From positions 29,236 through 51,536 of the IMG/VR virus record IMGVR_UViG_3300030012_004695: a DNA stretch of 22,301 nucleotides; one strand, written 5' to 3'. Positions 1 through 21,053 of this stretch are shown piece after piece. The notes below the pieces were generated by a model that saw nothing but the letters and a program-made list of their open reading frames with translations, did no database searches and was not told where the DNA came from. The position numbers were made by a program, and so were the translations under genes. This stretch comes from a virus. The first letter of the stretch is position 1. Every line of letters starts with the position of its first letter.

Positions 1-2
1 CC

Positions 3-233
3 TCTAATATAAGAACGTTCTCTAAAGATGTAGATGAAATGGATCTTATATGGCATAGGGATGATGAAGATAGAGAAATTACTATATTAGAAGGTACTGG
101 GTGGCAATTTCAAAGGGACAATGAATTACCTTTGGAACTTAAAGAAGGAGATAGTATATTTATACCACGACACCAAGTTCATAGAGTAATAAAAGGTGAA
201 ACTGATTTAAAAATAAAGATACTTAGAGACTGA
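3..233 (+). CDS. Cupin-fold protein, 3' part (5' end outside window)
   Basis: The frame is open from the first complete codon of the window (position 3) to TGA at 231-233, so the gene begins upstream; the Met at 39 is internal to it. The visible part reads as a single small cupin barrel. Cupin motif 1 is represented by WHRDDEDREITILEG, with a metal-ligand-like His, and motif 2 by EGDSIFIPRHQVHRVIKG, which has the typical G-x5-P-x-H spacing and a second His pair. Small stand-alone cupins of this kind occur in marine T4-like phages, with no established function. Whether a metal is bound, and what the substrate is, cannot be said. It is one of only two genes here ending in TGA, and it is followed directly by a strong terminator, so it ends its own transcription unit. 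Confidence 0.72.
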   Translation, partial: SNIRTFSKDVDEMDLIWHRDDEDREITILEGTGWQFQRDNELPLELKEGDSIFIPRHQVHRVIKGETDLKIKILRD

Positions 234-266
234 TTCATAGCCAGTCGATTTTAAAAAATATATAGG

Positions 267-304
267 AGCTGTGGCCCAATTTATTGGAGCCACAGCTTTT
301 TTTT
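267..304 (+). terminator. Rho-independent terminator after the cupin gene
   Basis: A 9-bp perfect stem AGCTGTGGC (267-275) / GCCACAGCT (289-297) carries an inner CCAA/TTGG extension with a TTTA loop and one bulged A. It runs into an 8-T tract (297-304). It separates the cupin gene from the metabolic cassette. Confidence 0.9.
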
Positions 305-315
305 CGTATATTAAC
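305..315 (+). promoter_or_regulatory. Promoter-like motif CGTATATTAAC upstream of the dehydrogenase gene
   Basis: TTTCGTATATTAAC lies immediately after the terminator T-tract, 17 nt before the ATG at 333. An almost identical TTTCGTATATTTAC is found 15 nt before the ATG at 1668. TATATTWA resembles the Bacteroidetes -7 element TAnnTTTG. The function is inferred from repetition and spacing only. Confidence 0.4.
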
Positions 316-332
316 ATGTAAAACTATAGTAA

Positions 333-1634
333 ATGGATGTAGTAATTATTGGAGCAGGTGTAGCAGGTGTAAATGCTGCTACTAAATTAATCGATAATAA
401 ATTTAAAGGTAAAATTACCATTATTGATATGGGTAAAAACCCATATGAAAGACCATATGAGGAGGTAATGACAGGATTTTTAGGTGCTGGAGGTTGGTCT
501 GATGGAAAATTAACTTATCATACTTCAATTGGTGGTCAACTTTCAAAATATTGTGGAGATGATAAAGCAATGGAGTTAATGGATCAAGTAATTGAAAATT
601 TTAAAAGATTTCACCCTAAACCAGAAGCAGTACAATGCTCAAATCCAGTAGCAGAACCAGACTTTATAAAACCATATTTTGGATTACGTTTATTTCCTGT
701 ATGGCACGTAGGTACAGATTATCTACATGAAATAGGTAAAAATTGGTATGATTTTTTAGTTAACAATGGTGTAGAATTTTTATGGGAAACTAAGGTTACT
801 GATATTAATTTTAAAGAAAGTATAGTAAGAGCAGATTCTACAAACTCTCAAACTATTAGATCATATAATAAGTTAATATTTGGTGTAGGTAAATCGGGTA
901 TTGATTTTGGTAAACAATTAGCAGAACAATATAAATTACCTACGGAACCTAAATCAGTACAAATAGGTGTTAGGTTTGAGGCACCACAAAAACACTTTCA
1001 AAAATTAATTGATGTATCTTATGATTTTAAGTTATATAGAAAATTTGAAGATAAAGGTGTATCATTAAGATCATTTTGTACTAATAATAATGCTGCTTAT
1101 GTTGCTGTAGAAGAAACTTATGGTGATCACAGTTATAATGGTCATGCTAAAAAGGATGAGGCATTTAGAAATGATATGACTAACTTTGGTATTTTAATGG
1201 AAATACAGGGCATAGAAGAACCATTTGTATGGTCAAGAAATGTAGTACAATCAGTAAATAAAGAAGGTACTGGTTTATATTATAGCCCATCTCGTAGACC
1301 ATCAACTACATCTGAGGGTGTAGATGTATCTGCTATACAAATTAATAATATAGAATTAGATAAAGTTAGAGAACAATTTGATGGTTATTTTCAATATATA
1401 GATGATTTTATTTCTGATATGAAAAAAGTATTTCCAACATTACAACATGATTGGGGTATCTATATACCAGAAGTTAAATACTTATCTCCTGAGCCACTTG
1501 TCGATTATTCCAATTTAGCCCTGACCAAGTTTCCCAATATCCACTTTGTAGGAGACGCTTTATCCGCTAGAGGAATAACGGTAAGTGGTGCACAAGGAAT
1601 ATATGTTAGCGAAGCTTTTTTGGATACCAAGTAA
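333..1634 (+). CDS. FAD-dependent dehydrogenase (COG2509-like)
   Basis: This 433-residue protein starts with a textbook FAD-binding Rossmann motif, GAGVAG at residues 7-12, right after the beta strand VVII. The centre contains GVGKSGIDFGKQLAEQ followed by VQIGVRFEAP. This matches the GRSG and 'diGVRvE' segments that I associate with the uncharacterised COG2509 FAD-dependent dehydrogenases. The C-terminus has the second FAD-contact motif, FVGDALSARGITVSGAQG (from about residue 405), where the Asp of GD normally contacts FAD ribityl or phosphate. The fold is therefore clear but the substrate is unknown. No signal peptide or membrane segment is seen, so it should be cytoplasmic. It is the first gene after a terminator and starts a cassette of non-structural genes. 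Such an enzyme is not part of the T4 core set and would be called an auxiliary metabolic gene. The ATG at 333 is preceded by an A-rich leader without Shine-Dalgarno. Confidence 0.82.
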   Translation: MDVVIIGAGVAGVNAATKLIDNKFKGKITIIDMGKNPYERPYEEVMTGFLGAGGWSDGKLTYHTSIGGQLSKYCGDDKAMELMDQVIENFKRFHPKPEAVQCSNPVAEPDFIKPYFGLRLFPVWHVGTDYLHEIGKNWYDFLVNNGVEFLWETKVTDINFKESIVRADSTNSQTIRSYNKLIFGVGKSGIDFGKQLAEQYKLPTEPKSVQIGVRFEAPQKHFQKLIDVSYDFKLYRKFEDKGVSLRSFCTNNNAAYVAVEETYGDHSYNGHAKKDEAFRNDMTNFGILMEIQGIEEPFVWSRNVVQSVNKEGTGLYYSPSRRPSTTSEGVDVSAIQINNIELDKVREQFDGYFQYIDDFISDMKKVFPTLQHDWGIYIPEVKYLSPEPLVDYSNLALTKFPNIHFVGDALSARGITVSGAQGIYVSEAFLDTK

Positions 1635-1640
1635 AACTTT

Positions 1641-1651
1641 CGTATATTTAC
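1641..1651 (+). promoter_or_regulatory. Promoter-like motif CGTATATTTAC upstream of the 88-residue gene
   Basis: This is the second copy of the motif seen at 305-315, with the same preceding TTT and nearly the same distance to the start codon (16 nt to 1668). It lies in the 33-nt gap after the dehydrogenase gene. Confidence 0.4.
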
Positions 1652-1667
1652 TAATAAAAACAGAAAT

Positions 1668-1934
1668 ATGTCAGAAATAAAACCAAATCCATTTCCAAAA
1701 TCTAAAAAGTTATCAAAACCAGATGGTACTATAGCTTATTCTTGGGATGGTAAATTACATAATTGGGATGGACCCGCATTAATACCTGAAGGTAATAATC
1801 GCAAAGCTGAATATTACTTATATGGTGTTAAAATGGATAAGGATGAATGGAGTGAGACTCGAAGACAAAGAGAAGGAGTTCCTTTTTATAAAAACCAATC
1901 AATGAAATCAAAATTATCAGATTATAGAAATTAA
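1668..1934 (+). CDS. Small conserved phage protein with DGKLHNWDGPA motif
   Basis: This 88-residue soluble protein has no signal or membrane segment. Residues from about 19 to 58 contain the pattern DGTIAYSWDGKLHNWDGPAL followed by KAEYYLYG. That is the 'dGxLHNxdGPAxi...EYYxxG' strand-turn repeat found in many short phage and giant-virus proteins, distantly like MORN/YwqK-type repeats. Its role is not known to me. It directly precedes the nucleotidyltransferase gene: its TAA (1932-1934) abuts the ATG at 1935, so the two are very likely translated from one message. The start is supported by the upstream CGTATATTTAC motif and by the absence of another Met in the first 50 residues. Confidence 0.7.
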   Translation: MSEIKPNPFPKSKKLSKPDGTIAYSWDGKLHNWDGPALIPEGNNRKAEYYLYGVKMDKDEWSETRRQREGVPFYKNQSMKSKLSDYRN

Positions 1935-2357
1935 ATGAAAAAAGCAGTTATAGTAAGTGGTTATTTTAACCCGTTACATAAAGGACATTTAGATTTGTTC
2001 GAAAAAGCTAAAGAGGTAGGAGATATGCTTATCGTTATAGTTAATAATGATAAACAAAGGGAAATGAAAGGTTCTAAATTTTTTCAAGACGAAGAAGAAA
2101 GAATTCGTATTATTAGAGCTTTAAGTGTGGTTGATATGGCTTGGGTTTCTATAGATAAAGATTCTACTCAAAATGCTACTTTAAAATGTATGGTTGATAA
2201 ATTTTATGGTTCTATGAAATTAGCTTTTGCTAATGGGGGAGATCAAAATAATGATACTATACCGGAAGCAGATATTTGTAGGACATTTGATATAGAATTA
2301 ATTGATGGATTAGGAGATAAAATTCAATCTTCTAGTTGGCTATTAGGAAAAAAATAA
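1935..2357 (+). CDS. HxGH nucleotidyltransferase (RfaE2/GCT-like)
   Basis: This is a 140-residue single-domain protein of the cytidylyltransferase-like superfamily. It opens with VSGYFNPLHKGHLDLFEKA, in which H15-x-x-H18 (HKGH) is the nucleotide-binding HxGH motif. GDMLIVIVNND follows, then the helix start EEERIRII (the DxxxR-like segment) and VDMAWVSIDKD. The C-terminal part has GGDQNN...IPEA and QSSSWLL, which line up with KGGD...IPE...STT in RfaE2/HldE adenylyltransferases and ISSTxIR in related NMN adenylyltransferases. The expected reaction is transfer of a nucleotidyl group from NTP to a phosphorylated sugar or polyol; the substrate cannot be read from the sequence. It sits between the small DGPA protein (0-nt gap) and a P-loop kinase (13-nt gap). 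The nearest alternatives are glycerol-3-phosphate cytidylyltransferase, heptose-1-phosphate adenylyltransferase or an NMN adenylyltransferase. Confidence 0.8.
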   Translation: MKKAVIVSGYFNPLHKGHLDLFEKAKEVGDMLIVIVNNDKQREMKGSKFFQDEEERIRIIRALSVVDMAWVSIDKDSTQNATLKCMVDKFYGSMKLAFANGGDQNNDTIPEADICRTFDIELIDGLGDKIQSSSWLLGKK

Positions 2358-2370
2358 TTATATTTAAAGT

Positions 2371-2901
2371 ATGAAAATAGGATTATGTGGTACAATGAGT
2401 GTAGGTAAAACTACATTAGTTAATGCTTTAGAAAAATTAGATCAATTTAAGGATTATAAGTTTGCTACTGAACGTAGTGAATATTTAATGAATTTAGGTA
2501 TTCCATTAAATACGGATTCAACATTAAAGGGTCAAACAGTATTTTTAGCCGAGCGTTGTGCGGAATTAATGCATAATAAGGTTATTACAGATAGAACTAT
2601 TTTAGATGTTATGGCATTTACTATGAATGCTGGATCAATTGATTATAAAGATAAGGAAGCATTTGAAGAATATGCTATAGAGTTTTTAAGAGAATATGAT
2701 TATATATTTTATATTTCTCCTGATGGTATTCCTATTGAAGATAATGGTATTAGAGAAACAGATGAGCATTATAGAGATTTAATTGATTTTACTATTACTA
2801 CTTTAATTAAAAGATATAGTCATAGAATACAAAATATTGAAATGATTAAGGGTAGTACAGAGGAACGTATAGAGCAAATATTAAAGTTTACAGGTCTTTA
2901 A
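2371..2901 (+). CDS. P-loop NTPase/kinase, AAA_28 (NadR-kinase-like)
   Basis: This 176-residue protein starts with a Walker A loop, GTMSVGKT (residues 7-14, with K13 and T14), directly after the first beta strand. ATERSEYLMNLG and ITDRTILDVMAF (D74, R75) follow. This is the arrangement of AAA_28/NadR-kinase and deoxynucleoside-kinase-like proteins, in which the DR segment lines the phosphate-acceptor site. The rest is predicted alpha/beta, ending with IEQILKFTGL. In NadR a kinase of this type phosphorylates nicotinamide riboside and is fused to an HxGH nucleotidyltransferase. Here a kinase and a nucleotidyltransferase are separate adjacent genes, which is suggestive but not proof of NAD salvage. 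A nucleoside or nucleotide kinase is the main alternative. TATATTTA lies only 4 nt before the ATG, so I do not call it a promoter. Confidence 0.75.
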   Translation: MKIGLCGTMSVGKTTLVNALEKLDQFKDYKFATERSEYLMNLGIPLNTDSTLKGQTVFLAERCAELMHNKVITDRTILDVMAFTMNAGSIDYKDKEAFEEYAIEFLREYDYIFYISPDGIPIEDNGIRETDEHYRDLIDFTITTLIKRYSHRIQNIEMIKGSTEERIEQILKFTGL

Positions 2902-2904
2902 TCA

Positions 2905-2912
2905 TATTTATA
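2905..2912 (+). promoter_or_regulatory. Late-promoter-like motif TATTTATA (context ATATTTATAA)
   Basis: The motif lies between the kinase stop and the ATG at 2929, with 16 nt between motif and ATG. It is the first of eight copies of a motif family upstream of virion genes. Its reverse complement is TATAAATA, the T4 late -10 sequence, but the consistent downstream + strand starts argue for + strand use. Confidence 0.45.
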
Positions 2913-2928
2913 ATAAAACTTTAGTATA

Positions 2929-3480
2929 ATGAAAAAATCTGAACTAAAAGATTACGTTAAAGAACAAATTGTTGATGTTCTATCTACAGAAGCTCAAGAT
3001 GATCGTATAGGTAATCCTAAATTTGGTCCTGCTCCTATGGAATTTCAAACTATGAGAGATACATTAGGAGATAAAAAAATGCTGGATAGAATCCAAATGC
3101 TAAATGTAAATGATTTAGAAGAATTACTAAACGCTTTAACATTTGTAGTTCAAAAAGAGGCATCCGAAGAAGATATAAAAAATCAAAAGGCATTTAATGA
3201 TGAGTTAGAAAAAACAAATGATTTAATGTCTAAAATGAAAATGGAAGACGAAGAAGCCCCTGCGGGTGATAAGGAGGTTCAAGCTAAAGCCTCTAAACAA
3301 GATAAAATTATTAAAAATTTTAAACGTTTAGAAGCTCAGATGAAAACCCATCTTGAACTTTTTAAAACATCTGAATCACCTGAAAATAAAGAAACAGCTA
3401 AAAATATGCTTAAAAAATTAACTCCTGAGTATCAAGCTGCTAAAAAAGAATATGATAAAATAAGAAATGTCAAAGTCTAA
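2929..3480 (+). CDS. Uncharacterised charged helical protein
   Basis: This 183-residue protein is rich in Lys, Glu, Asp and Met and has no Cys, membrane segment or signal peptide. It begins MKKSELKDYVKEQIVDVL, a short amphipathic helix. That start type is common among small unannotated proteins of marine T4-like phages. Residues from about 55 to 110 and 120 to 183 are predicted strongly helical, probably coiled coil, separated by a linker EEAPAGDKE. I recognise no catalytic motif. A late-type motif precedes it, and it overlaps the next gene by 14 nt, so it probably belongs with the downstream membrane-protein and packaging genes rather than with the metabolic cassette. A structural or chaperone role is possible but not shown. 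Confidence 0.65.
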   Translation: MKKSELKDYVKEQIVDVLSTEAQDDRIGNPKFGPAPMEFQTMRDTLGDKKMLDRIQMLNVNDLEELLNALTFVVQKEASEEDIKNQKAFNDELEKTNDLMSKMKMEDEEAPAGDKEVQAKASKQDKIIKNFKRLEAQMKTHLELFKTSESPENKETAKNMLKKLTPEYQAAKKEYDKIRNVKV

Positions 3481-3823
3481 TATATTAAATATAATACTAA
3501 TAGTAGGAATATTTATTCTACTATTTTTTATGTTTGGGGGAGAGGATGAAAATTATGTTTCTGACTATAACTCTAAAATAGAGTTGTTAGAAGAAAAAGT
3601 AGATTCTCTTCATCAAAAAAATACTGCTTTAAAATCAAAAGCGGATTCACTAGGATCAGCAATAGCTGAGTATGATATTAAAATTAAAAAATTAAACACC
3701 AGAATTTATGTTATTAAAAAACAAACTAAGGAACAACTTAATGCTGTTGATCTTTTTGGTGATGACGAGCTGGAACAGTTTTTCGCAAAGCGTTACGGAC
3801 AGTACTCAGATTCAATTAACTAA
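3467..3823 (+). CDS. Single-pass membrane protein with periplasmic coiled coil (i-spanin-like architecture)
   Basis: This 118-residue protein has one N-terminal transmembrane helix (about residues 6-23, ILNIILIVGIFILLFFMF). After it comes a soluble part containing a heptad-like coiled coil (about 38-92, KIELLEEKVDSLHQKN and onward). The N-terminus carries Lys and the post-membrane part begins GGEDEN, so an N-in/C-out orientation is expected. That is the general architecture of Rz-type i-spanins, and its 3' third is overlapped out of frame by the next gene, as Rz is by Rz1. It could equally be an unrelated membrane-anchored phage protein. The start ATG lies inside the end of the preceding gene (14-nt overlap), implying translational coupling. 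It is a hypothetical protein with a clear topology; the spanin role is inference. Confidence 0.6.
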   Translation: MSKSNILNIILIVGIFILLFFMFGGEDENYVSDYNSKIELLEEKVDSLHQKNTALKSKADSLGSAIAEYDIKIKKLNTRIYVIKKQTKEQLNAVDLFGDDELEQFFAKRYGQYSDSIN

Positions 3824-4133
3824 ACCAATAGCAAGGTTAGTCATAAAAGATCTAATTCAATTTGATGGTTTATCTGAAGAGATGCAAACCATGCAAATTA
3901 TTTTAACTGAGACTAATAATAAACTGTTAACTCAGGGTACATTAGTTGCTAATTTAAAAACCCAAGTTGAAACCTATCAAAATATAATTGATAGTAAGGA
4001 TCAACAATTTGATACTCAGGCTGAGCTTAATAAAAAATTGCAGACTGATCTCAAAAAACAAAAATTAAGAACTAAATTAATGGGTGGAGCTGGTTTAGCT
4101 TTAGCAATAGGGGCTGCTGTACTTATAAATTAA
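3708..4133 (+). CDS. Secreted coiled-coil protein with C-terminal hydrophobic segment, overlapping the previous gene
   Basis: This 141-residue protein starts within the preceding gene in a different frame (116-nt overlap). It has a canonical signal peptide: basic n-region KNKLRNN, hydrophobic core LMLLIFLVMT and c-region SWNSFSQ, with a plausible signal-peptidase-I cut after SFS (small residues at -3 and -1). No lipobox Cys is present, so it is not a standard Rz1-type lipoprotein. The middle (about 55-120) is Gln/Lys/Thr-rich coiled coil, and the C-terminus has a short hydrophobic stretch (GGAGLALAIGAAVLI, about 126-140). A later Met at residue 12 would remove the basic n-region, so the first ATG is preferred. 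Its stop TAA overlaps the terminase ATG (TAATG). The function is unknown; a lysis/spanin partner is one reading. Confidence 0.6.
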   Translation: MLLKNKLRNNLMLLIFLVMTSWNSFSQSVTDSTQIQLTKPIARLVIKDLIQFDGLSEEMQTMQIILTETNNKLLTQGTLVANLKTQVETYQNIIDSKDQQFDTQAELNKKLQTDLKKQKLRTKLMGGAGLALAIGAAVLIN

Positions 4134-5701
4134 TGGCTGATTTAAAAAAAGTAATACGACAAGAGTATCTTAAATGCGCTAAAGACCCAGTACACTTTAT
4201 GCGCAAATACTGTTATATCCAACACCCCCAACGTGGTCGTATACAATTTAATTTATATCCTTTTCAAGAAAAAGTATTAACCCTAATGAGAGATAATCCT
4301 TATTCGATTATCTTAAAATCAAGACAATTAGGTATATCAACATTATCTGCTGGATATTCATTATGGTTAATGTTATTCCATAAAGATAAAAATATATTAT
4401 GTATCGCAACAAAGCAGGAAACTGCTAAAAACATGGTTACTAAGGTAAAATTTATGTATGAAAATTTACCCTCATGGCTTAGAGTAGATGCAGCAGAAAA
4501 TAATAAACTTAATTTAAGACTAACAAATGGATCTCAAATAAAAGCAACATCAGCGAGTAGTGATGCTGGTAGATCAGAAGCAGTATCTTTACTATTAATT
4601 GATGAGGCAGCTTTTATTGATAATATTGGTGAGATATGGGCATCGGCGCAACAAACACTTGCAACGGGTGGTGGATGTATAGCATTAAGTACTCCCTATG
4701 GTACTGGAAATTGGTTTCATCAAACATGGACAAGAGCCGAAGCTTCTGAAAATGAATTTTTACCTATAAGACTACCTTGGCATGTACATCCTGAAAGAGA
4801 CGAAGCATGGAGAAAAAGACAAGATGAATTATTAGGTGACCCTAGAATGGCGGCACAAGAATGTGATTGTGATTTTTCAACTTCGGGTGATATTGTATTT
4901 TATCCTGAATATATGGAATATTATGAAAAATCATATATTAAAGACCCACTAGAAAGAAGAGGAGTTGATAAAAATTTATGGGTTTGGGAATCACCTGATT
5001 ACTCAAGAGATTATATAGTAGTTGCTGACGTCGCTCGTGGTGATGGTAAAGATTATTCTGCTTTTCATATTATTGATGTAGAAAGTAATGTACAAGTAGC
5101 GGAATATAAAGGACAAATTGGAACTAAAGAATATGGACATTTACTAGTAGGTATAGCTTCAGAATATAATGAGGCATTACTTGTAATTGAAAATGCTAAT
5201 ATAGGTTGGGCAACTATACAAGTTGCTATAGATAGAGTGTATCCTAATTTATATTATTCTCCTAAAAGTGAATCTAATGTAGATTCATATTTTGACAAAT
5301 ACCAGGATCATTCAAAAATGACTGCTGGTTTTACAATGTCTTCTAGAACAAGACCTATGGTAGTAGGTAAATTTCAAGAATATATAGCTGATAAAGGTGT
5401 TACTATTCAATCTAAGAGATTAATAGAAGAAATGAAAACTTTTATCTGGCGTAATGGAAGACCTGAAGCACAACAAGGTTATAATGATGATTTAGTAATG
5501 GCCTTTGGAATTGCTATGTATATTAGAGATACTGCTTTGAAATATAGACAAAGAGGTATAGATTTAACAAAACAAACATTAAATAATATGACAGTTAATA
5601 GGACTGCATACCAAGGAGCATATTTTTCTAAAGGTATTGACAATCCCTACCATGTAGATACAAGCCGTGGTCAAGAAGATATTAGCTGGTTAATTAGATA
5701 A
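4133..5701 (+). CDS. Terminase large subunit (T4 gp17-like DNA packaging ATPase/nuclease)
   Basis: This 522-residue motor protein translocates DNA into the prohead and cuts concatemers. The ATPase half has a Walker-A-type loop, KSRQLGIST (62-70), a Walker B LLLIDEAAFI with D157-E158, and a coupling motif STPYGTGNW (S186-T187-P188). The C-terminal RNase-H-like nuclease half has the first acidic residue in VADVARGDG (D299), the second in LLVIENANIG (E353) and the third in NDDLVMAFG (D452/D453), as in T4 gp17. Its length is somewhat below that of T4 gp17 (610). The classical Walker A Lys position is Ile here, and a Lys stands six residues earlier, a variation also seen in other phage terminases. 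It overlaps the upstream gene by one base and is followed 25 nt later by the portal gene. No small terminase (gp16) is recognised in the window. Confidence 0.95.
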   Translation: MADLKKVIRQEYLKCAKDPVHFMRKYCYIQHPQRGRIQFNLYPFQEKVLTLMRDNPYSIILKSRQLGISTLSAGYSLWLMLFHKDKNILCIATKQETAKNMVTKVKFMYENLPSWLRVDAAENNKLNLRLTNGSQIKATSASSDAGRSEAVSLLLIDEAAFIDNIGEIWASAQQTLATGGGCIALSTPYGTGNWFHQTWTRAEASENEFLPIRLPWHVHPERDEAWRKRQDELLGDPRMAAQECDCDFSTSGDIVFYPEYMEYYEKSYIKDPLERRGVDKNLWVWESPDYSRDYIVVADVARGDGKDYSAFHIIDVESNVQVAEYKGQIGTKEYGHLLVGIASEYNEALLVIENANIGWATIQVAIDRVYPNLYYSPKSESNVDSYFDKYQDHSKMTAGFTMSSRTRPMVVGKFQEYIADKGVTIQSKRLIEEMKTFIWRNGRPEAQQGYNDDLVMAFGIAMYIRDTALKYRQRGIDLTKQTLNNMTVNRTAYQGAYFSKGIDNPYHVDTSRGQEDISWLIR

Positions 5702-12518: not shown

Positions 12519-14135
12519 ATGAGTATTCAATCTCTTTTAGAAAGTGCAAACAACTTTAAGTCACAACAAAGTGACGCTGCACGACTGTCTGAAAAGTGGG
12601 AAAAAACAGGACTTTTAGAAGGACTTGAAGGATCACATAAAACCAATATGGGTGTTATCCTTGAAAACCAAGCAAAACAACTTGTTGTTGAAGCTTCTTC
12701 TACTAATTCTGGTGGAGCATCTTTCACTGCTGGTGATGGTGCACAATGGGCTGGTGTAGCTCTTCCACTTGTACGTAAAGTATTCGGACAAATAGCTGCT
12801 CAGGAATTCGTTTCTGTTCAGCCAATGAACTTGCCTTCTGGGCTAGTATTTTATTTAGATTTCCAATATGGAACTACTAAAGATGGATTTACTTCTGGTA
12901 ATTCACTTTATGGTGACGTATCTGGATTTGCATCTAACTCAACTTCAGGTGGTCTTTATGGCGCTGGTAGATTTTCTTATTCTATCAACACTACTGGATC
13001 CGCTGTAATTAATTCATCAACAGTATCTGGATCTGCTACATGGTCAGATTTAAACTTTGATTCTGATTTTTCAGCATCTGCAGTAGCTGGTGATTATAGA
13101 ACAATTACAATTGCTGATACAGCATTGACTGAGCCTGATACTGAAGCCGTAAGAGGATTCCGCTTAAAAGATAGCGTTGGTCTATCTATAGCAGAAGATG
13201 CTTTTACAAGAAGAAATGCTGCTGATAACAGTACAATTTTTGTAGTATCCTCTTCTTTTATTGCCGGTGATGAAAATATTACTATCGATTATTCTCAACA
13301 AACTAAGGATAATAACAGAGGTGACTTTGAAGATGGTAACACTGGATTAAACGGTGGAAACAACCCTATCTCAATTCCTGAGATTAATGTACAAATGAAA
13401 TCAAGTGCGATTGTTGCTAAAACTAGAAAGTTAAAAGCAGTATGGACACCTGAATTTGCACAAGACCTTAATGCTTACCACAGTATTGATGCTGAAGCAG
13501 AATTAACTTCTATGTTAAGTGAGTATATCTCTCTAGAAATTGATCTAGAAATTCTTGATATGCTAATTGAAAATGCTTCTGCTGGTACTGAAGTATGGTC
13601 TGCTGTAAATAACCAAGCATTTAGCTCAACTGCTGGTAATGGTACTACTACTGACCTAGGATTTTATAATTCACAAGGACAGTGGTTCCAAACACTAGGA
13701 ACTAAAATTACTAAATTAAGTAATGTTATTCACCAGAAAACTCTTAGAGGTGGTGCTAACTTTATGGTAATTGCTCCTGCTGTAGGTACTGTACTTGAAG
13801 CTATTCCTGGATTCGCTGCTGACGCTGATGGAGATGTAACTAAGAAAGATTATGCTTTCGGTGTACAGAAAATCGGTGCTCTAGGTGGTGGTAAGATTAA
13901 AGTATACAAAAACCCTTATATGACTGAAAACCGTATCTTATTAGGATACAGAGGTGGACAGTTCCTAGAAAGTGGTGCTGTATTTAGTCCTTACATTCCA
14001 TTAATCATGACTCCTCTAGTATACGATCCAGATACCTTTACTCCAAGAAAAGGTCTCTTGACTAGATATGCTAAGAAGATTGTTAGACCAGAATTCTATG
14101 GTACAATAGAAATTTCAGGACTTAACACTATCTAA
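12519..14135 (+). CDS. Major capsid protein (T4 gp23-like)
   Basis: This 538-residue HK97-fold shell protein is close to T4 gp23 in length (521). The N-terminal ~58 residues form a helical prodomain. The sequence QLVVEASSTNSGGASFTAGD gives a predicted gp21 cleavage after E58 (hydrophobic-x-Glu), matching the position of the T4 cut after E65. Then come PLVRKVFGQIAAQEFVSVQP and MNLPSGLVFYLDFQYG, the hallmark gp23 segment. Residues about 105-270 are a Ser/Gly/Thr-rich variable part, probably surface-exposed. The C-terminal half has the conserved KTRKLKAVWTPEFAQDLNAY and DAEAELTSMLSEYISLEIDLE, then VYKNPYMTENRILLGYRGG and PYIPLIMTPLVYDPDTFTPR, ending with RKGLLTRYAKK. It follows the scaffold gene by 23 nt and is closed by a strong terminator, consistent with very high expression. 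Confidence 0.96.
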   Translation: MSIQSLLESANNFKSQQSDAARLSEKWEKTGLLEGLEGSHKTNMGVILENQAKQLVVEASSTNSGGASFTAGDGAQWAGVALPLVRKVFGQIAAQEFVSVQPMNLPSGLVFYLDFQYGTTKDGFTSGNSLYGDVSGFASNSTSGGLYGAGRFSYSINTTGSAVINSSTVSGSATWSDLNFDSDFSASAVAGDYRTITIADTALTEPDTEAVRGFRLKDSVGLSIAEDAFTRRNAADNSTIFVVSSSFIAGDENITIDYSQQTKDNNRGDFEDGNTGLNGGNNPISIPEINVQMKSSAIVAKTRKLKAVWTPEFAQDLNAYHSIDAEAELTSMLSEYISLEIDLEILDMLIENASAGTEVWSAVNNQAFSSTAGNGTTTDLGFYNSQGQWFQTLGTKITKLSNVIHQKTLRGGANFMVIAPAVGTVLEAIPGFAADADGDVTKKDYAFGVQKIGALGGGKIKVYKNPYMTENRILLGYRGGQFLESGAVFSPYIPLIMTPLVYDPDTFTPRKGLLTRYAKKIVRPEFYGTIEISGLNTI

Positions 14136-15387: not shown

Positions 15388-15903
15388 ATGGCTTTATTTG
15401 GTGGCTCCAGAGATGTAAGTTTAATAAAAAAATTAAATAGAGAATTGATGGGTGATATAATCACCCAACAAGCTGCTATTTACAAATATAAATTAGAAGA
15501 AACAAAAACTAATTTATATGGTGAAGCAGCTGGAGAAAAATTTTATGATGGTCCTTTTTTATTTAATTGTTTAATTGAAAGAGAAAATCAAGCATACCCC
15601 GAAGATGATACTGGGATTGGGTTTGGACAAGGTATTGAATTTAGATTTTTACGTGCTGATTTAGTAGAAGCTAATGTTGTCCCTCAAGTAGGAGATATTA
15701 TTTTATACCAAAATAAATATTATGGAGTAGATTCTACAGTTTCTAACCAATATTTTGTAGGTAAAAACCCAGATTATCCTAATAATGATAATCCTTTAAA
15801 CCCAGGGTTAGAAAATTTTGGAGCTAATCATTCAATAATTTGCAGTACATATTATGTACCAGCAGATAAAGTTAATATATCACCACATAGAGAAAGATTT
15901 TAA
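15388..15903 (+). CDS. Neck/head-completion protein (T4 gp14-like)
   Basis: This 171-residue protein is markedly shorter than T4 gp14 (256). Its N-terminus is MALFGGSRDVSLIKKLNREL. Later parts, FLFNCLIERENQAYPEDDTG and VPQVGDIILYQNKYYGVDST, parallel the 'EGDLIYFP...FEI' core of gp14. The assignment rests on that weak similarity plus strict gene order (gp13-gp14-gp15) and spacing: 1 nt after gp13, and a 1-nt TAATG overlap with the next gene. With gp13 it would form the neck that receives the tail. An uncharacterised connector protein is the alternative. Confidence 0.68.
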   Translation: MALFGGSRDVSLIKKLNRELMGDIITQQAAIYKYKLEETKTNLYGEAAGEKFYDGPFLFNCLIERENQAYPEDDTGIGFGQGIEFRFLRADLVEANVVPQVGDIILYQNKYYGVDSTVSNQYFVGKNPDYPNNDNPLNPGLENFGANHSIICSTYYVPADKVNISPHRERF

Positions 15904-16793
15904 TGCCTAGTAAAAAATATTATAGAAAACCAATTCCTAAAAAGCAAAAGGAAATAAGTGCAGGTTTGCAAAAAGCTTTTGATACTGAAAGAGGTAATCC
16001 TAATAAAGTAGTTAACCCTAATAATTCTCAAACGGGTATTGATTTTAATAGGGGTACACAACTTAGTATGAAAAATGATTCATCTAAGTTACTTACTATT
16101 GGCATACAGGATTTAGATGAAGCCGTATTTTTTTATTTTCAAAATGTTATAAAACCATTTGTTTATCAAAATGGTTCAAGAAGAAGTGTACCTTTTATTT
16201 ATGCCGCTCCTGAAAGATGGAAATCATATCAAAAAGATGGCTATTATAGAGATAAGGGTGGAGCAGTAATGTTACCTATTATTGTTATCAAACGTGATTC
16301 TTTAGAAAAAGATAGAACAGTATATAATAAATTAGATGCTAATATGCCTAATTTGTATGGTACTTTTCAAAAAGCATATAATCCTAAAAATGCATATGAT
16401 AATTTTGCTGTTTTAAATAATCGTATCCCAACTAAAGAATACAATCTATCAGTAGTTCCCGATTTTGTAACATTAAATTATAGTTGTATAATCCAAACTT
16501 ATTATATGGAACAATTAAATAAAATAATTGAATCTGTAGAATATGCTTCGGATGCATACTGGGGTGATCCTGAAAGATTTAAGTTTAGAGCTTTTATAGA
16601 TAGTTTTCAAACTGCTACCGAATTAACAGCGGGTAGAGATCGTTTAGTTAGAGGTAATTTTAATATTAGATTACGTGGATATATTATACCTGGAGTAATA
16701 CAAAAAGATATTACTGCACTTAAAAAAGTAAATTCTAAAGCAAAGGTTACAGTTACTTCGGAAACAGTAGCTAATATAAATAATGTTCCTTGA
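15903..16793 (+). CDS. Tail sheath stabiliser/completion protein (T4 gp15-like)
   Basis: This 296-residue protein compares with 272 in T4 gp15, which caps the tail tube and sheath and joins the neck. After a basic, Asn-rich N-terminal ~60 residues, the core has VPFIYAAPERWKSYQKDGYY, MLPIIVIKRDSLEKDRTVYN and VVPDFVTLNYSCIIQTYYME followed by QLNKIIESVEYASDAYWGDP. These fit the gp15 pattern of 'VPITYAsKEhf', 'LPRI', and 'YELSIFTRYEDDMFQIVEQI', as well as I can align by eye. The gene overlaps gp14 by one base and is the last of the neck operon; it ends in TGA, unlike most genes here. A 33-nt gap separates it from the glycosyltransferase genes. Confidence 0.72.
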   Translation: MPSKKYYRKPIPKKQKEISAGLQKAFDTERGNPNKVVNPNNSQTGIDFNRGTQLSMKNDSSKLLTIGIQDLDEAVFFYFQNVIKPFVYQNGSRRSVPFIYAAPERWKSYQKDGYYRDKGGAVMLPIIVIKRDSLEKDRTVYNKLDANMPNLYGTFQKAYNPKNAYDNFAVLNNRIPTKEYNLSVVPDFVTLNYSCIIQTYYMEQLNKIIESVEYASDAYWGDPERFKFRAFIDSFQTATELTAGRDRLVRGNFNIRLRGYIIPGVIQKDITALKKVNSKAKVTVTSETVANINNVP

Positions 16794-16826: not shown

Positions 16827-17918
16827 ATGAAAGTTTTATTTTTAGCACCACATTTGAGTACAGGAGGAATGCCTGCGTTTTTATTAAAACGTATTGAGGC
16901 ATTACTTAAATATAGCAAAATAGAAATATTTGTTATAGAATGGAAATGTTATAGTGATGTTTATACTATACAACGTGACAAAATTAAAAATTTATTAGGG
17001 GATAATTTTATTTCATATTGGGGTGAAATAGATAAACAAAAAAATATTGTAGATTTTTGTTATAAAAATAAAATAGATATAATCCATACAGAAGAAATAC
17101 CTGAAGGATTTGATACTCATAACCCATTTGATATTAAATTACAAGAAAGATTATATGATAGAAAACATCCTTGGCAAATAATAGAAACCTGTCATAATAT
17201 CTATTTTAAACCTGATGAAGAAAAATTATTTGAACCAAATGCTTATGCTTGTGTTACTCCTTTTCATATAAGAAAAACTTTTAAAAATCGTCCTGTTTAT
17301 AAAACATTAATTCCTTTTCCTATTGATCCCCGTATTCAATTATCTTCAACACAAGAAGAAGTTTTATCTCAAAATGGATGGATAACAAAAGGAGAATTTC
17401 ACATTTTAAATGTAGGGTTATGGACTCCTGGAAAAAATCAAGGTTATGCTATAGAATTAGCTAGAACACTATATGACAAATATGGATGGACTTATATATT
17501 TCATTTTTTAGGTAATCAAGCTTCTAATTTTAAAGAATATTGGGAACCTTTAATGAGTAATCTTCCACCTAATGTATTTGTATTAGGAGAAACAAATGAT
17601 ACAAATAAATATTTTAAAATGTGTGATTTAATGTTATTTACTTCAACTTGGGAATGTAATCCTATAGTACTAAAAGAAGCGATATCAAATAATATTAAAA
17701 TTATGGCTTACAATTTAGATCATTATGGAGAAGAATATTTACCTTTTATAAATCCTTTATCAAGTAATTTAGAAACGGATAAATTAAATATATTAAAAAC
17801 CATCCATTCACCTATAAAATATAAATTACAAGATTATAGTGATGATGTAAAAATATTTGCTACAAAACATATTGATTTATACGAAAATTTAATTAATAGT
17901 GGAGTTAGAAGAAAATAA
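16827..17918 (+). CDS. Glycosyltransferase, GT-B fold (GT4-like)
   Basis: This 363-residue cytoplasmic enzyme transfers a sugar from a nucleotide donor. The N-terminal Rossmann domain opens MKVLFLAPHLSTGGMPAFLL, with the Gly-rich loop STGGMP that approaches the donor phosphates in GT4 enzymes. The C-terminal donor domain starts around NVGLWTPGKNQGYAIELA (N195 onward), then FHFLGN, VFVLGETNDTNKYFKMCDL, and the E-x7-E motif ECNPIVLKE (E276 and E284), typical of retaining GT4 enzymes. Acceptor and sugar are unknown. It lies between gp15 and gp18, an unusual place for a non-structural gene. It overlaps the next glycosyltransferase gene by 20 nt, so both are probably made together and act in one pathway, perhaps modifying a virion or host surface component. 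Confidence 0.86.
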   Translation: MKVLFLAPHLSTGGMPAFLLKRIEALLKYSKIEIFVIEWKCYSDVYTIQRDKIKNLLGDNFISYWGEIDKQKNIVDFCYKNKIDIIHTEEIPEGFDTHNPFDIKLQERLYDRKHPWQIIETCHNIYFKPDEEKLFEPNAYACVTPFHIRKTFKNRPVYKTLIPFPIDPRIQLSSTQEEVLSQNGWITKGEFHILNVGLWTPGKNQGYAIELARTLYDKYGWTYIFHFLGNQASNFKEYWEPLMSNLPPNVFVLGETNDTNKYFKMCDLMLFTSTWECNPIVLKEAISNNIKIMAYNLDHYGEEYLPFINPLSSNLETDKLNILKTIHSPIKYKLQDYSDDVKIFATKHIDLYENLINSGVRRK

Positions 17919-18996
17919 AATATTAATTACTTTTAATTTAGTACCTAAAGTTGAAATAAAAGGAAATATTAAAAAAGAATATTTTGTAGAATTTATTGAT
18001 TCAGATACTAATACTACTATTCATACAGATACTATCAGTAATAATATGTGGACTCAATCTAACCGGAGATGGTTAACTAATTGGGTTATTAAAATTAATG
18101 GTAATGTAGAACATGTATTTAATTTAAAAGATAAAAAAGTAAAAATTTCATTTGAATCTAAGTCTGTAGGTGATACTTTAGCTTGGATGCCTCAAGTAGT
18201 GGAATTTCAAAAAAGATATAAATGTAATGTTATTGTATCTTCATTTCATAATGAATTTTTTCAGGGTTTAGATGTATATAAAAATGTAGAATTTATATCT
18301 CCAGGTGTAGAGTATGATTGTTATGCCCATTATGGTTTAGGATGGTTTAGGACTAATGAACAATGGGATGAAGGATCATATCATTTAAATAAACCTAATA
18401 CTATTCCTATGATACAAGCTACTACTGATATGTTGGGTTTACCTTATAAAGAAATTAATTATGGGATTAATTTTAAATTTAAAAAACGTCCCCTAAAAGA
18501 AAAATATATTTGCATTGGCCCTCGTTCGACCGCTGCTTTAAAAGAATGGCCTTATCATTACTGGGAATGGTTAGCTAAAATGTTAAATGAAATAGGATAT
18601 AAAGTAGTTAATATATCATATGAAGGTTTTAATCAAAAAAATATAATAAATAAAGAAAAATTAAATTGGGAAGATACTTATAATTACCTTTATCACGCCG
18701 AACTATTTATAGGTTTAGGTTCTGGGTTATCTTGGTTTAATTGGGCTATGGAAAAACATACGTTAATGATAAATAATTTTATCCCATACGGATATGAAAT
18801 GACCCAAAACTTAACTAAAATAGAAGATCATTCAGTATGTAATAATTGCTGGGTAGATAAAAGAGTATTGTTTGATAAAAGTAATTGGGATTGGTGTCCT
18901 AGACATCAAGGTACTATGTCTCAACATATTTGTCATAAGGCAATAAAACCTGAAATAGTTTTAAAGAAAATTCAATATTTATTAAAGTTCAAATAA
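17899..18996 (+). CDS. Autotransporter-heptosyltransferase-like glycosyltransferase (TibC/Aah type)
   Basis: This 365-residue protein has a GTG start (17899); an in-frame stop at 17890 excludes a start further upstream with a normal codon. Residues 1-80 are an N-terminal beta domain (FVEFIDSD, NNMWTQSNRRWLTNWVIKI). The GT-B part then begins KISFESKSVGDTLAWMPQVV (82-101) and continues with GPRSTAALKEW (207-217) and LFIGLGSGLSWFNWAM (269-284). The C-terminal cluster is C314-x2-C317, then NWDWCPRH with C333, and C345. This order, and the four-Cys site that holds iron in TibC, is the signature of bacterial autotransporter strand-loop-strand O-heptosyltransferases, which attach ADP-activated heptose to Ser of secreted proteins. 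The family is assigned from remembered motifs, and the donor sugar here is unknown. It overlaps the GT4 gene by 20 nt. Confidence 0.82.
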   Translation: MELEENKILITFNLVPKVEIKGNIKKEYFVEFIDSDTNTTIHTDTISNNMWTQSNRRWLTNWVIKINGNVEHVFNLKDKKVKISFESKSVGDTLAWMPQVVEFQKRYKCNVIVSSFHNEFFQGLDVYKNVEFISPGVEYDCYAHYGLGWFRTNEQWDEGSYHLNKPNTIPMIQATTDMLGLPYKEINYGINFKFKKRPLKEKYICIGPRSTAALKEWPYHYWEWLAKMLNEIGYKVVNISYEGFNQKNIINKEKLNWEDTYNYLYHAELFIGLGSGLSWFNWAMEKHTLMINNFIPYGYEMTQNLTKIEDHSVCNNCWVDKRVLFDKSNWDWCPRHQGTMSQHICHKAIKPEIVLKKIQYLLKFK

Positions 18997-19026: not shown

Positions 19027-19278
19027 ATGTCAGAAATAATTAAGTTACAAGAAGAAGAGTTGCAACAACTTAAAGAAACCCAAAATCAAATTACTCAATT
19101 CATTTATAATTTAGGTCAATTTGAAGTTCAAAAAACTACAGTTTTAACCCAACTGGAGCAAGTTCAGGGAAAGCAAAATGAATTTGCTAAGGAACTAAAT
19201 AAAAAATATGGGGAAGGAAATATTAATTTAGAAACAGGTGAACTTACTTTAGTAAAATCATCTGAATCCACAGAATAA
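19027..19278 (+). CDS. Small coiled-coil protein upstream of tail sheath
   Basis: This 83-residue protein is almost one continuous helix: heptad-like Leu, Ile and Gln spacing runs from residue 4 to about 62 (IIKLQEEELQQLKETQNQIT and LTQLEQVQGKQNEFAKELNK). A short ordered tail, KYGEGNINLETGELTLV, follows. It is soluble, has no Cys, and carries no catalytic motif. The NINLETGEL tail and coiled coil look conserved in type among small proteins of marine phages, but no function is known to me. Lying directly before the sheath gene with its own promoter-like motif, it may be a tail-assembly chaperone or minor virion protein, which is inference from position only. Confidence 0.68.
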   Translation: MSEIIKLQEEELQQLKETQNQITQFIYNLGQFEVQKTTVLTQLEQVQGKQNEFAKELNKKYGEGNINLETGELTLVKSSESTE

Positions 19279-19340: not shown

Positions 19341-21053
19341 ATGGCAGAAACTCTATTATCTCCTGGTGTATTAGCCCGAGAAACTGACCAATCATTTATT
19401 CAAGGACAACCTGTACAAGCTGGAGCTGCTGTTATTGGACCAGCTGCTAAAGGGCCTGTTGGTATTCCTACTTTAGTTACTTCATATAGTGAGTATCAAG
19501 CAATTTATGGTAGTGATGTTACTAGTGGCTCACAACAATATGAGTACCTAACTCAAACCTCAGCAAATAATTATTTTTCTCAAGGAGGAACTTCATTATT
19601 AGTTACACGTGTTGCAAGTGGTAGCTTTACAGGTGCTACAAGTACAACAATTGCAAATTCTATTGATGCTACTTCTGCATCTTTTGAATTAACAACTTTA
19701 TCAGAAGGTGAAATTGCTAATAGTTCTGGATCGGAAGGTACTAATAACATTTTGACTAATGGTACTAAAGATAATGTACGTTGGGAAATTACTAGCGTAA
19801 ACACTTCTTCCGGTGTATTTAGTTTATTGATTCGTAGAGGAGACGATTCTTCAAAACAAAAGAATGCATTAGAAACATTTTCAAACCTTTCACTAGACCC
19901 AAAAGCAAGTAACTATATTTCAAAAGTAATAGGAGATACATCACATACTGTACAACAAGATGGTACAGATTATTATGTAAAATCAAATGGTACTTTTGTA
20001 AACAAAAGTAAATATGTTAGAGTAAGTGCTGTAAATTACCCAACACCCGATTATTTTGATAATAATGGGGTTGCAAAAGATGCATTTACTGGTTCTATCC
20101 CAGTAGTTGGTTCAGGATCATTTAGTGGTGCAACTGGTGCTTTATTTAATGGACCTGGTGCTGCAAAATTTAATGATTCAATTGATACAAATATTCAGGG
20201 ATTAGGCCAAACAGACTATACTGAATCTATTAACTTATTAAGTAATACAGACGAATATAAATTCAATGTAATTAGTGTACCTGGACTAAATCATAGTGAT
20301 CATGGAACTGCAGTTGGTTTATTAGTATCTACAGTAGAATCACGTACAGATGCAATAGCTGTAATTGATTTAGACGGATATGGTACTGGAGTTTCAACTA
20401 TAGTAAATGGAGCAAGTTCATTTGATACTAGTTATGCTGCCGCTTATTGGCCATGGCTACAAACATTAAATACAACTGGACAAACAGTATGGGTACCTGC
20501 TTCAACTATGATTCCTGGAGTATATGCATTTACTGATAAATCAAGTGATGCTTGGTTTGCCCCAGCTGGTTTAACTAGAGGTGCTCTAGGTAATGTAATT
20601 AAAGCTGAAAGAAAATTAACTTCTGGAAACAGAGACGCATTATATGCTGCTAATGTTAACCCAATTGCTACATTCCCAGGAAGTGGAGTTGTAGTATTTG
20701 GTCAGAAAACATTACAAAAACGTGCAAGTGCTCTTGATAGAGTAAATGTAAGAAGATTGTTAATTGCTCTTAAAGGATTTATTTCTCAAGTTGCTGATAA
20801 TTTAGTATTTGAACAAAATACAACAGCTACAAGAAATAGCTTTTTAAGTCAAGTTAATCCTTATTTAGAAAGTGTACAACAACGTCAAGGTTTGTTTGCC
20901 TTTAAAGTAGTAATGGATGAAACTAATAATACTGCTGATGTAGTAGATAGAAATGAGCTTGTTGGTCAAATATTTTTACAACCAACTAAAACAGCTGAAT
21001 TTATCATGTTAGATTTCAATGTATTGCCAACTGGAGCTACATTCCCAGCATAA
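19341..21053 (+). CDS. Tail sheath protein (T4 gp18-like)
   Basis: This 570-residue contractile sheath subunit is shorter than T4 gp18 (659). The N-terminus MAETLLSPGVLARETDQSFI leads into GAAVIGPAAKGPVGIPTLVT and SYSEYQAIYG, the classic opening of myovirus sheath proteins, whose N-terminal strand links neighbouring subunits. The middle (about 95-260) is a variable Ser/Thr/Gly-rich part facing outwards. The conserved C-terminal half includes VISVPGLNHSDHGTAVGLLV, YAAAYWPWLQT and VWVPASTMIPGVYAFTD. It also has RKLTSGNRDALYAANVNPIA, GVVVFGQKTLQKRASALDRV and NVRRLLIALKGFISQVADNL, ending with FKVVMDETNN and FIMLDFNVLPTGATFPA. The gene shares its leader-start sequence AACATAAAATGGCAG with the tail tube gene. 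Confidence 0.95.
   Translation: MAETLLSPGVLARETDQSFIQGQPVQAGAAVIGPAAKGPVGIPTLVTSYSEYQAIYGSDVTSGSQQYEYLTQTSANNYFSQGGTSLLVTRVASGSFTGATSTTIANSIDATSASFELTTLSEGEIANSSGSEGTNNILTNGTKDNVRWEITSVNTSSGVFSLLIRRGDDSSKQKNALETFSNLSLDPKASNYISKVIGDTSHTVQQDGTDYYVKSNGTFVNKSKYVRVSAVNYPTPDYFDNNGVAKDAFTGSIPVVGSGSFSGATGALFNGPGAAKFNDSIDTNIQGLGQTDYTESINLLSNTDEYKFNVISVPGLNHSDHGTAVGLLVSTVESRTDAIAVIDLDGYGTGVSTIVNGASSFDTSYAAAYWPWLQTLNTTGQTVWVPASTMIPGVYAFTDKSSDAWFAPAGLTRGALGNVIKAERKLTSGNRDALYAANVNPIATFPGSGVVVFGQKTLQKRASALDRVNVRRLLIALKGFISQVADNLVFEQNTTATRNSFLSQVNPYLESVQQRQGLFAFKVVMDETNNTADVVDRNELVGQIFLQPTKTAEFIMLDFNVLPTGATFPA

Follow-up and report, generated by a model that had tools for sequence, protein, structure and literature searches.

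The window, as we call the whole 22,301-nucleotide stretch analysed here (positions 29236-51536 of a 51.5-kb viral contig), carries a T4-like head and tail gene cluster of a marine T4-like phage. Its major capsid protein gp23 (12519..14135, plus strand) is closest to that of Flavobacterium phage immuto (57% identity), followed by that of Microcystis phage Mel-JY01 (50%). A gene presumed from gene order to encode gp15 (15903..16793, plus strand; no family hit) and the gene for the tail sheath protein gp18 (19341..21053, plus strand) form the upstream and downstream borders of a slot that holds a glycosyltransferase cassette: a GT4-family glycosyltransferase gene (16827..17918, plus strand) and the gene for a 365-amino-acid TibC/AAH-like glycosyltransferase (BAHT; 17899..18996, plus strand), the GTG start codon of which lies within the final 20 nt of the GT4 gene. 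Between the cassette and gp18 lies an 83-amino-acid gene of no family (19027..19278, plus strand); since it is found in cassette-free phages too, we count it as core and not as part of the cassette. The original prediction had set BAHT between gp15 and gp18, which stands with gp15 presumed, while the GT4 and 83-amino-acid genes were missing from that account. Elsewhere in the window, an RfaE-C/cytidylyltransferase-like gene adjoins a gene for an AAA_28 kinase (1935-2357 and 2371-2901), a pair that perhaps serves nucleotide or NAD salvage and whose membership of a glycan cassette is not clear.

A phage branch of the TibC/AAH family

The motifs on which the original prediction of a TibC/Aah-like enzyme was based (SVGDTLAW, GPRSTAALKEW, GLGSGLSWFNWAM and NWDWCPRH) are all found in the ORF at 17899-18996, and the cysteine cluster consists of exactly C314, C317, C333 and C345, i.e. 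CxxC-x15-C-x11-C. The profile search that had been proposed as a check returned a significant match to the NCBIfam family TIGR04414 (hepto_Aah_TibC; E=3.6e-55), but at 187.4 bits the match stays under the curated whole-protein cut-off of 200 bits, which relatives in two other contigs (L072, 221 bits; L009, 225 bits) and in Mel-JY01 (321 bits) exceed. The homology is specific despite the missed cut-off, since ordinary GT9 enzymes of 369 gammaproteobacterial genomes reach at most 36 bits on the same profile. The enzyme also matches the GT9 Pfam family; its only real match in the PDB is TibC (E=9e-27), and a profile built from 62 homologues aligns to TibC with E=6e-67.

In good agreement with the profile searches, an AlphaFold model computed from a 59-row alignment (pLDDT 92.8) matches TibC (4rb4) with a TM-score of 0.83 and WaaC/WaaF-type enzymes with TM-scores of 0.43-0.51 at 12-14% identity. 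The strands of the N-terminal beta domain extend to approximately residue 73 and are followed by the GT-B catalytic domain. The GT9 lipopolysaccharide (LPS) heptosyltransferases WaaC and WaaF have the GT-B catalytic core in common with the window enzyme; they contain neither the N-terminal beta domain nor the Cys4 segment. We take the encoded enzyme to represent a branch of the TibC/AAH O-heptosyltransferases that is specific to phages, with a computed fold and a predicted sugar transfer activity. As originally described, a GT-B core is combined with an N-terminal beta domain and a Cys4 motif within a T4-like structural cluster. A real BAHT is present in two of the 369 gammaproteobacterial genomes, and a search of genome contigs for cellular donors, with patterns suited to phages only, gave two hits, one of them a phage-like contig.

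In TibC, D110 is the base, T226, K230, W305 and R286 bind the donor, P300 sets stereoselectivity, F265 and V266 form the tip of the thumb and Cys339, Cys342, Cys358 and Cys370 hold iron (PMC4358343). The computed equivalents in the window enzyme are D92 (codon 18172..18174, plus strand) for the catalytic base, T211 for T226, K215 (18541..18543, plus strand) for the phosphate/sugar contact K230 and W279 (18733..18735, plus strand) for the sugar O4 contact W305; these four positions are invariant in 93 homologues wherever the letter is present. The window protein is therefore likely to be an active enzyme, as judged from its residues. The adenine contact R286, a conserved residue of the BAHTs described so far, is replaced by T260 and P300 by G274. 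The R286 site is Thr, Leu, Ser or Val in all 84 sheath-linked homologues and Arg in the two bacterial BAHTs, and the segment of the thumb, a beta-hairpin that in TibC serves to build the dodecamer, comprises 25 residues in the same 84 of 84 homologues versus 35 in TibC, with no two-strand hairpin at the thumb position in the AlphaFold model. Both the donor-base specificity and the assembly of the ring may thus differ from those of TibC; as TibC depends on Arg286 and the window enzyme has Thr at this site, the donor base is possibly not that of ADP.

The iron-finger segment with C314, C317, C333 and C345 (18838..18933, plus strand) corresponds to C339, C342, C358 and C370 of TibC. Across the 93 homologues the four cysteines are all-or-none, and the four rows without any of them form one clade (L010, L011, L145 and L149), in which all four have been replaced together and the catalytic residues are retained. 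While each iron-finger cysteine is essential in TibC, the phage clade does without all four; the iron site noted earlier is present as a motif in the window and is not indispensable to the family. Given the replaced Arg286, the shortened thumb, the score under the cut-off and the lack of a TIGR04415 strand-loop-strand autotransporter acceptor in the phage's own contig or in 10 further BAHT phage records, we file the enzyme as a BAHT-like variant and not as a TIGR04414 equivalog.

A variable cassette upstream of the tail sheath

In IMG/VR, at least 543 relatives were confirmed by a profile scan. Among 106 distinct contigs examined, gp18 lies 2-7 genes downstream of BAHT in 99 and exactly two genes downstream in 60, figures that are biased upward because the contigs were picked by their likeness to the window. 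The window's GT4 partner matches Pfam PF00534 above its cut-off (E=3e-10) and has an MshA/BshA/WaaG-like fold (TM ~0.7). A GT4 gene adjoins BAHT in 38 of the 106 contigs, and in 57 BAHT is embedded in a long protein; each long protein checked proved to be a GT4-BAHT fusion, in some cases with an additional PIG-L-like deacetylase domain. The fused GT4 usually belongs to a subfamily other than that of the window; the fusion in contig L009 contains the window-type GT4. Larger cassettes also contain a sugar C-methyltransferase and an epimerase/dehydratase.

When contigs were picked by gp18 only, the gp15-gp18 slot was visible in 41, of which 30 carry BAHT, six are empty and five hold other genes. 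The BAHT gene is part of a glycan cassette of variable content that sits among the late structural genes, immediately before the tail sheath gene. The slot of one relative, L056, holds three LamG-domain proteins where others have the BAHT cassette. Many BAHT-negative relatives (L056, L064, L065, L075, L078, L079 and L083-L094) encode two different gp18 genes in tandem.

The donor sugar

Activation of a heptose phosphate requires a kinase, a phosphatase and a nucleotidyltransferase. Four contigs from two BAHT lineages carry genes for an RfaE-domain-II-like nucleotidyltransferase, a small HAD phosphatase and an RfaE-domain-I-like kinase directly after BAHT. The co-location of these activities with BAHT supports a heptose donor, with all genes of the trio (HldE-N-like kinase, HAD phosphatase and HldE-C-like nucleotidyltransferase) scoring under their curated cut-offs. 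Similar kinases have already been annotated in cyanophages. A phmmer search with the trio of L072 detected no hld genes in the window's 51-kb contig.

A Ser glycosyltransferase that has diverged from BAHT might instead use a non-heptose sugar or a nucleotide other than ADP, a reading that we regard as possible, though on the doubtful side, and that concerns the donor and is compatible with the acceptor favoured below. It would account for the replacement of R286 by Thr, Leu, Ser or Val throughout the sheath-linked clade, for the cassettes with a sugar C-methyltransferase, an epimerase/dehydratase and a PIG-L-like deacetylase, and for the restriction of hld genes to four contigs. The retained equivalents of W305, K230, T226 and D110 and the hld-like trio next to BAHT in two lineages argue for a heptose, and Gly or Ser at the P300 site resembles Ser294 of AAH, an enzyme that accepts both ADP-heptoses (PMC4358343). 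In other viral contigs (L098-L102), a trio of HldE-N-like kinase, HAD and HldE-C-like genes occurs together with a radical SAM gene and with no BAHT nearby.

Collagen-like fibres as candidate acceptors

In all-frame translations, 19 of the 57 fused-BAHT loci encode long (Gly-Ser/Thr-Ser)n proteins a short distance upstream of the cassette. Such repeats are absent from all 41 BAHT-negative sheath loci, from randomly chosen viral loci totalling 1.04 Mb and from two BAHT-negative large records (one of 156 kb, and immuto). The repeat proteins that were scanned, those of L159 and L128, contain Collagen (PF01391) and Peptidase_S74 (PF13884) domains and are hence tail fibres.

The association was also examined in reverse. 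Viral contigs 30 kb or longer were selected by nothing but a DNA pattern encoding eight Gly-Ser/Thr-Ser triplets, and the repeats were verified in translation. BAHT is encoded by 20 of the 41 repeat-picked contigs (19 above the cut-off) and by none of 46 control contigs, for which the selection used a random 15-mer or Gly-Pro-x collagen repeats (Fisher p=1.1e-8, with lineage and exact length unmatched and shared descent inflating the significance). The count is conservative in that it leaves out L278, which is the same contig as L155 and for which BAHT was known beforehand. The repeat gene lies within 6 kb of BAHT in 13 of the 20 contigs, compared with approximately five expected under a crude uniform null. 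In the isolated phage Mel-JY01, the repeat ORF ends 1.7 kb upstream of a GT4-BAHT fusion, and the gp18 slot is empty. Both gammaproteobacterial BAHTs adjoin GTS-repeat lipoproteins (3' flank of L169; L177:2081-2419), not autotransporters. This computed linkage makes a repetitive Ser-rich tail-fibre shaft, typically with (Gly-Ser/Thr-Ser)n collagen-like repeats, the most likely acceptor of the family. A 548-kb phage contig (L594) contains, a few kb from BAHT, three ORFs (15-848, 2165-3913 and 3949-5631) with near-pure poly-serine stretches (~90% Ser in 60 residues); their products are possible extreme acceptors.

In the window's own clade the picture is different: no Gly-Ser/Thr-Ser repeat was found in the 51.5-kb contig or in the 77-kb and 54-kb sister contigs, and such a repeat is present in one of 45 standalone-BAHT loci. 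The collagen-like acceptor is therefore assigned to the family and not to this phage. For the window phage itself, gp18 and gp23 are less likely acceptors than either a fibre encoded beyond the 51-kb contig or some other Ser-rich fibre. Fibre-like ORFs, including one with an S74 domain, lie at the far end of its contig. The sister phage G005 encodes, at the end of a contig of the window clade, a 408-amino-acid S/T-rich ORF (L330:16239-17465, minus strand) with STTTTFNTSRTT-type repeats and 64% Ser+Thr. This Ser/Thr fibre (STTTTFNTS repeats) is a possible alternative acceptor; a second copy of it and a single distant relative both lie on BAHT-free contigs.

The host surface, tail sheath and capsid as targets

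A glycosyltransferase encoded by a phage could also act on the host, modifying its LPS or a secreted surface protein of host or phage origin for superinfection exclusion, the role proposed for pelagimyophage glycosyltransferases (PMC7029224). We consider this unlikely for BAHT. The enzyme is homologous to protein O-glycosyltransferases and not to LPS enzymes, as the TM-scores given above illustrate, its gene sits in the late structural cluster, and the family is linked to collagen-like fibres with an S74 chaperone. In favour of a surface target, a protein that combines a signal peptide with an S/T-rich part and a barrel-like part is encoded by the sisters G001 and G005. This sister-phage protein (L333:15523-17208; L327:7275-9068) has a signal-peptide-like start, an acidic low-complexity middle rich in Ser, Thr and Asn and a barrel-like C-terminus ending in Phe, and gives no Pfam hit.

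The original prediction had named the Ser/Thr-rich parts of gp18 and gp23 as natural acceptors, and the location of BAHT, which precedes gp18 by two genes in 60 contigs (by 2-7 in 99), together with a gp18 Ser+Thr content of about 20%, would fit with this. However, comparison with BAHT-negative relatives removes Ser/Thr richness as evidence for either protein: Ser+Thr content is equal in relatives with and without the cassette (20.1% versus 19.8% for gp18), and no Ser column distinguishes the gp18 proteins. Losses and gains of Ser between BAHT-positive and no-cassette gp18 are balanced (152/140), the same as in the control, and each near-invariant Ser of BAHT-positive gp18 is also retained in most no-cassette gp18. 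Moreover, BAHT lies away from gp18 in Mel-JY01 and in most repeat-picked contigs. Glycosylation of the surface domains of gp18, or of gp23, is accordingly unlikely; in other lineages, the genes linked to BAHT suggest Gly-Ser/Thr-Ser collagen-like fibres instead.

Discussion

It is plausible that the window enzyme glycosylates some virion protein. Taking all evidence together, we think it probable that phage BAHTs glycosylate Ser residues of virion proteins and that the acceptor of the family is, most likely, a Ser-rich fibre shaft. As to donor, acceptor, timing and purpose, we infer that late in infection, in the cytoplasm, BAHT would use a nucleotide-activated heptose, or a close relative of this sugar, to glycosylate Ser of the virion protein, and that the GT4 enzyme would extend this first sugar. 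In relatives, the deacetylase, C-methyltransferase and epimerases would elaborate the glycan further. The finished glycan could shield or stiffen long fibres, or change their binding.

The kind of enzyme is already known. With TibC (PDB 4RAP/4RB4) and AAH (eLife 03714), the window enzyme shares the full-length fold, comprising the N-terminal beta domain and GT-B core, and the catalytic D/T/K/W residues and Cys4 motif at equivalent positions. It differs in that it is phage-encoded beside tail genes, has lost R286 and has a thumb that is ~10 residues shorter; furthermore, BAHTs of the window type are coupled to or fused with GT4, and one clade has lost Cys4. One phage homologue is already named in UniProt (A0A6J5SVC1, 'Glycosyltransferase Aah/TibC [uncultured Caudovirales phage]'), i.e. 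automatic annotation has already assigned a TibC-like domain to a phage protein; in the literature searched this is a name only, with no study of function, cassette or acceptor. That literature, which excludes most subscription journals, contains no description of phage BAHTs or of a collagen-like fibre acceptor.

To our knowledge, few cases of phage protein glycosylation have been established, and for most phage glycosyltransferases the acceptor is a matter of guesswork. In mycobacteriophages, likewise a case of phage-encoded glycosylation of virion proteins, glycans are found at the C-termini of capsid and tail tube subunits (Freeman et al. 2023, cited in PMC12619734); the part of that account available to us describes neither a BAHT-type enzyme nor a collagen-like fibre acceptor. 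The present analysis ties a Ser-glycosyltransferase family of known structure statistically to collagen-like fibre shafts as an acceptor class, and offers an alternative to the usual LPS-modifying reading of such genes. If correct, it would mean that there are heavily glycosylated phage fibres, with implications for adsorption, immune recognition and stability, and the BAHT family would extend beyond autotransporters.

More tentatively, and with a little less than even confidence, we suggest that TibC-like enzymes constitute a broad glycosylation system for phage Gly-Ser/Thr-Ser collagen-like fibres and bacterial GTS-repeat lipoproteins, of which the autotransporters would be one special case. 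The fibre shafts of many large aquatic phages would then carry hundreds of O-linked sugars, in some cases made via phage-encoded heptose pathways, and the window clade would have changed its acceptor. Sugar-coated phage fibres are a specific and testable prediction, and the isolated Microcystis phage Mel-JY01 carries both BAHT and a collagen-like fibre gene. In its deposited record (PP395634.1), a minus-strand 'hypothetical protein' (L014:739-2298) beginning PEVPSVPELPEVP looks like a shadow of the plus-strand collagen-like fibre ORF at 2-3052.
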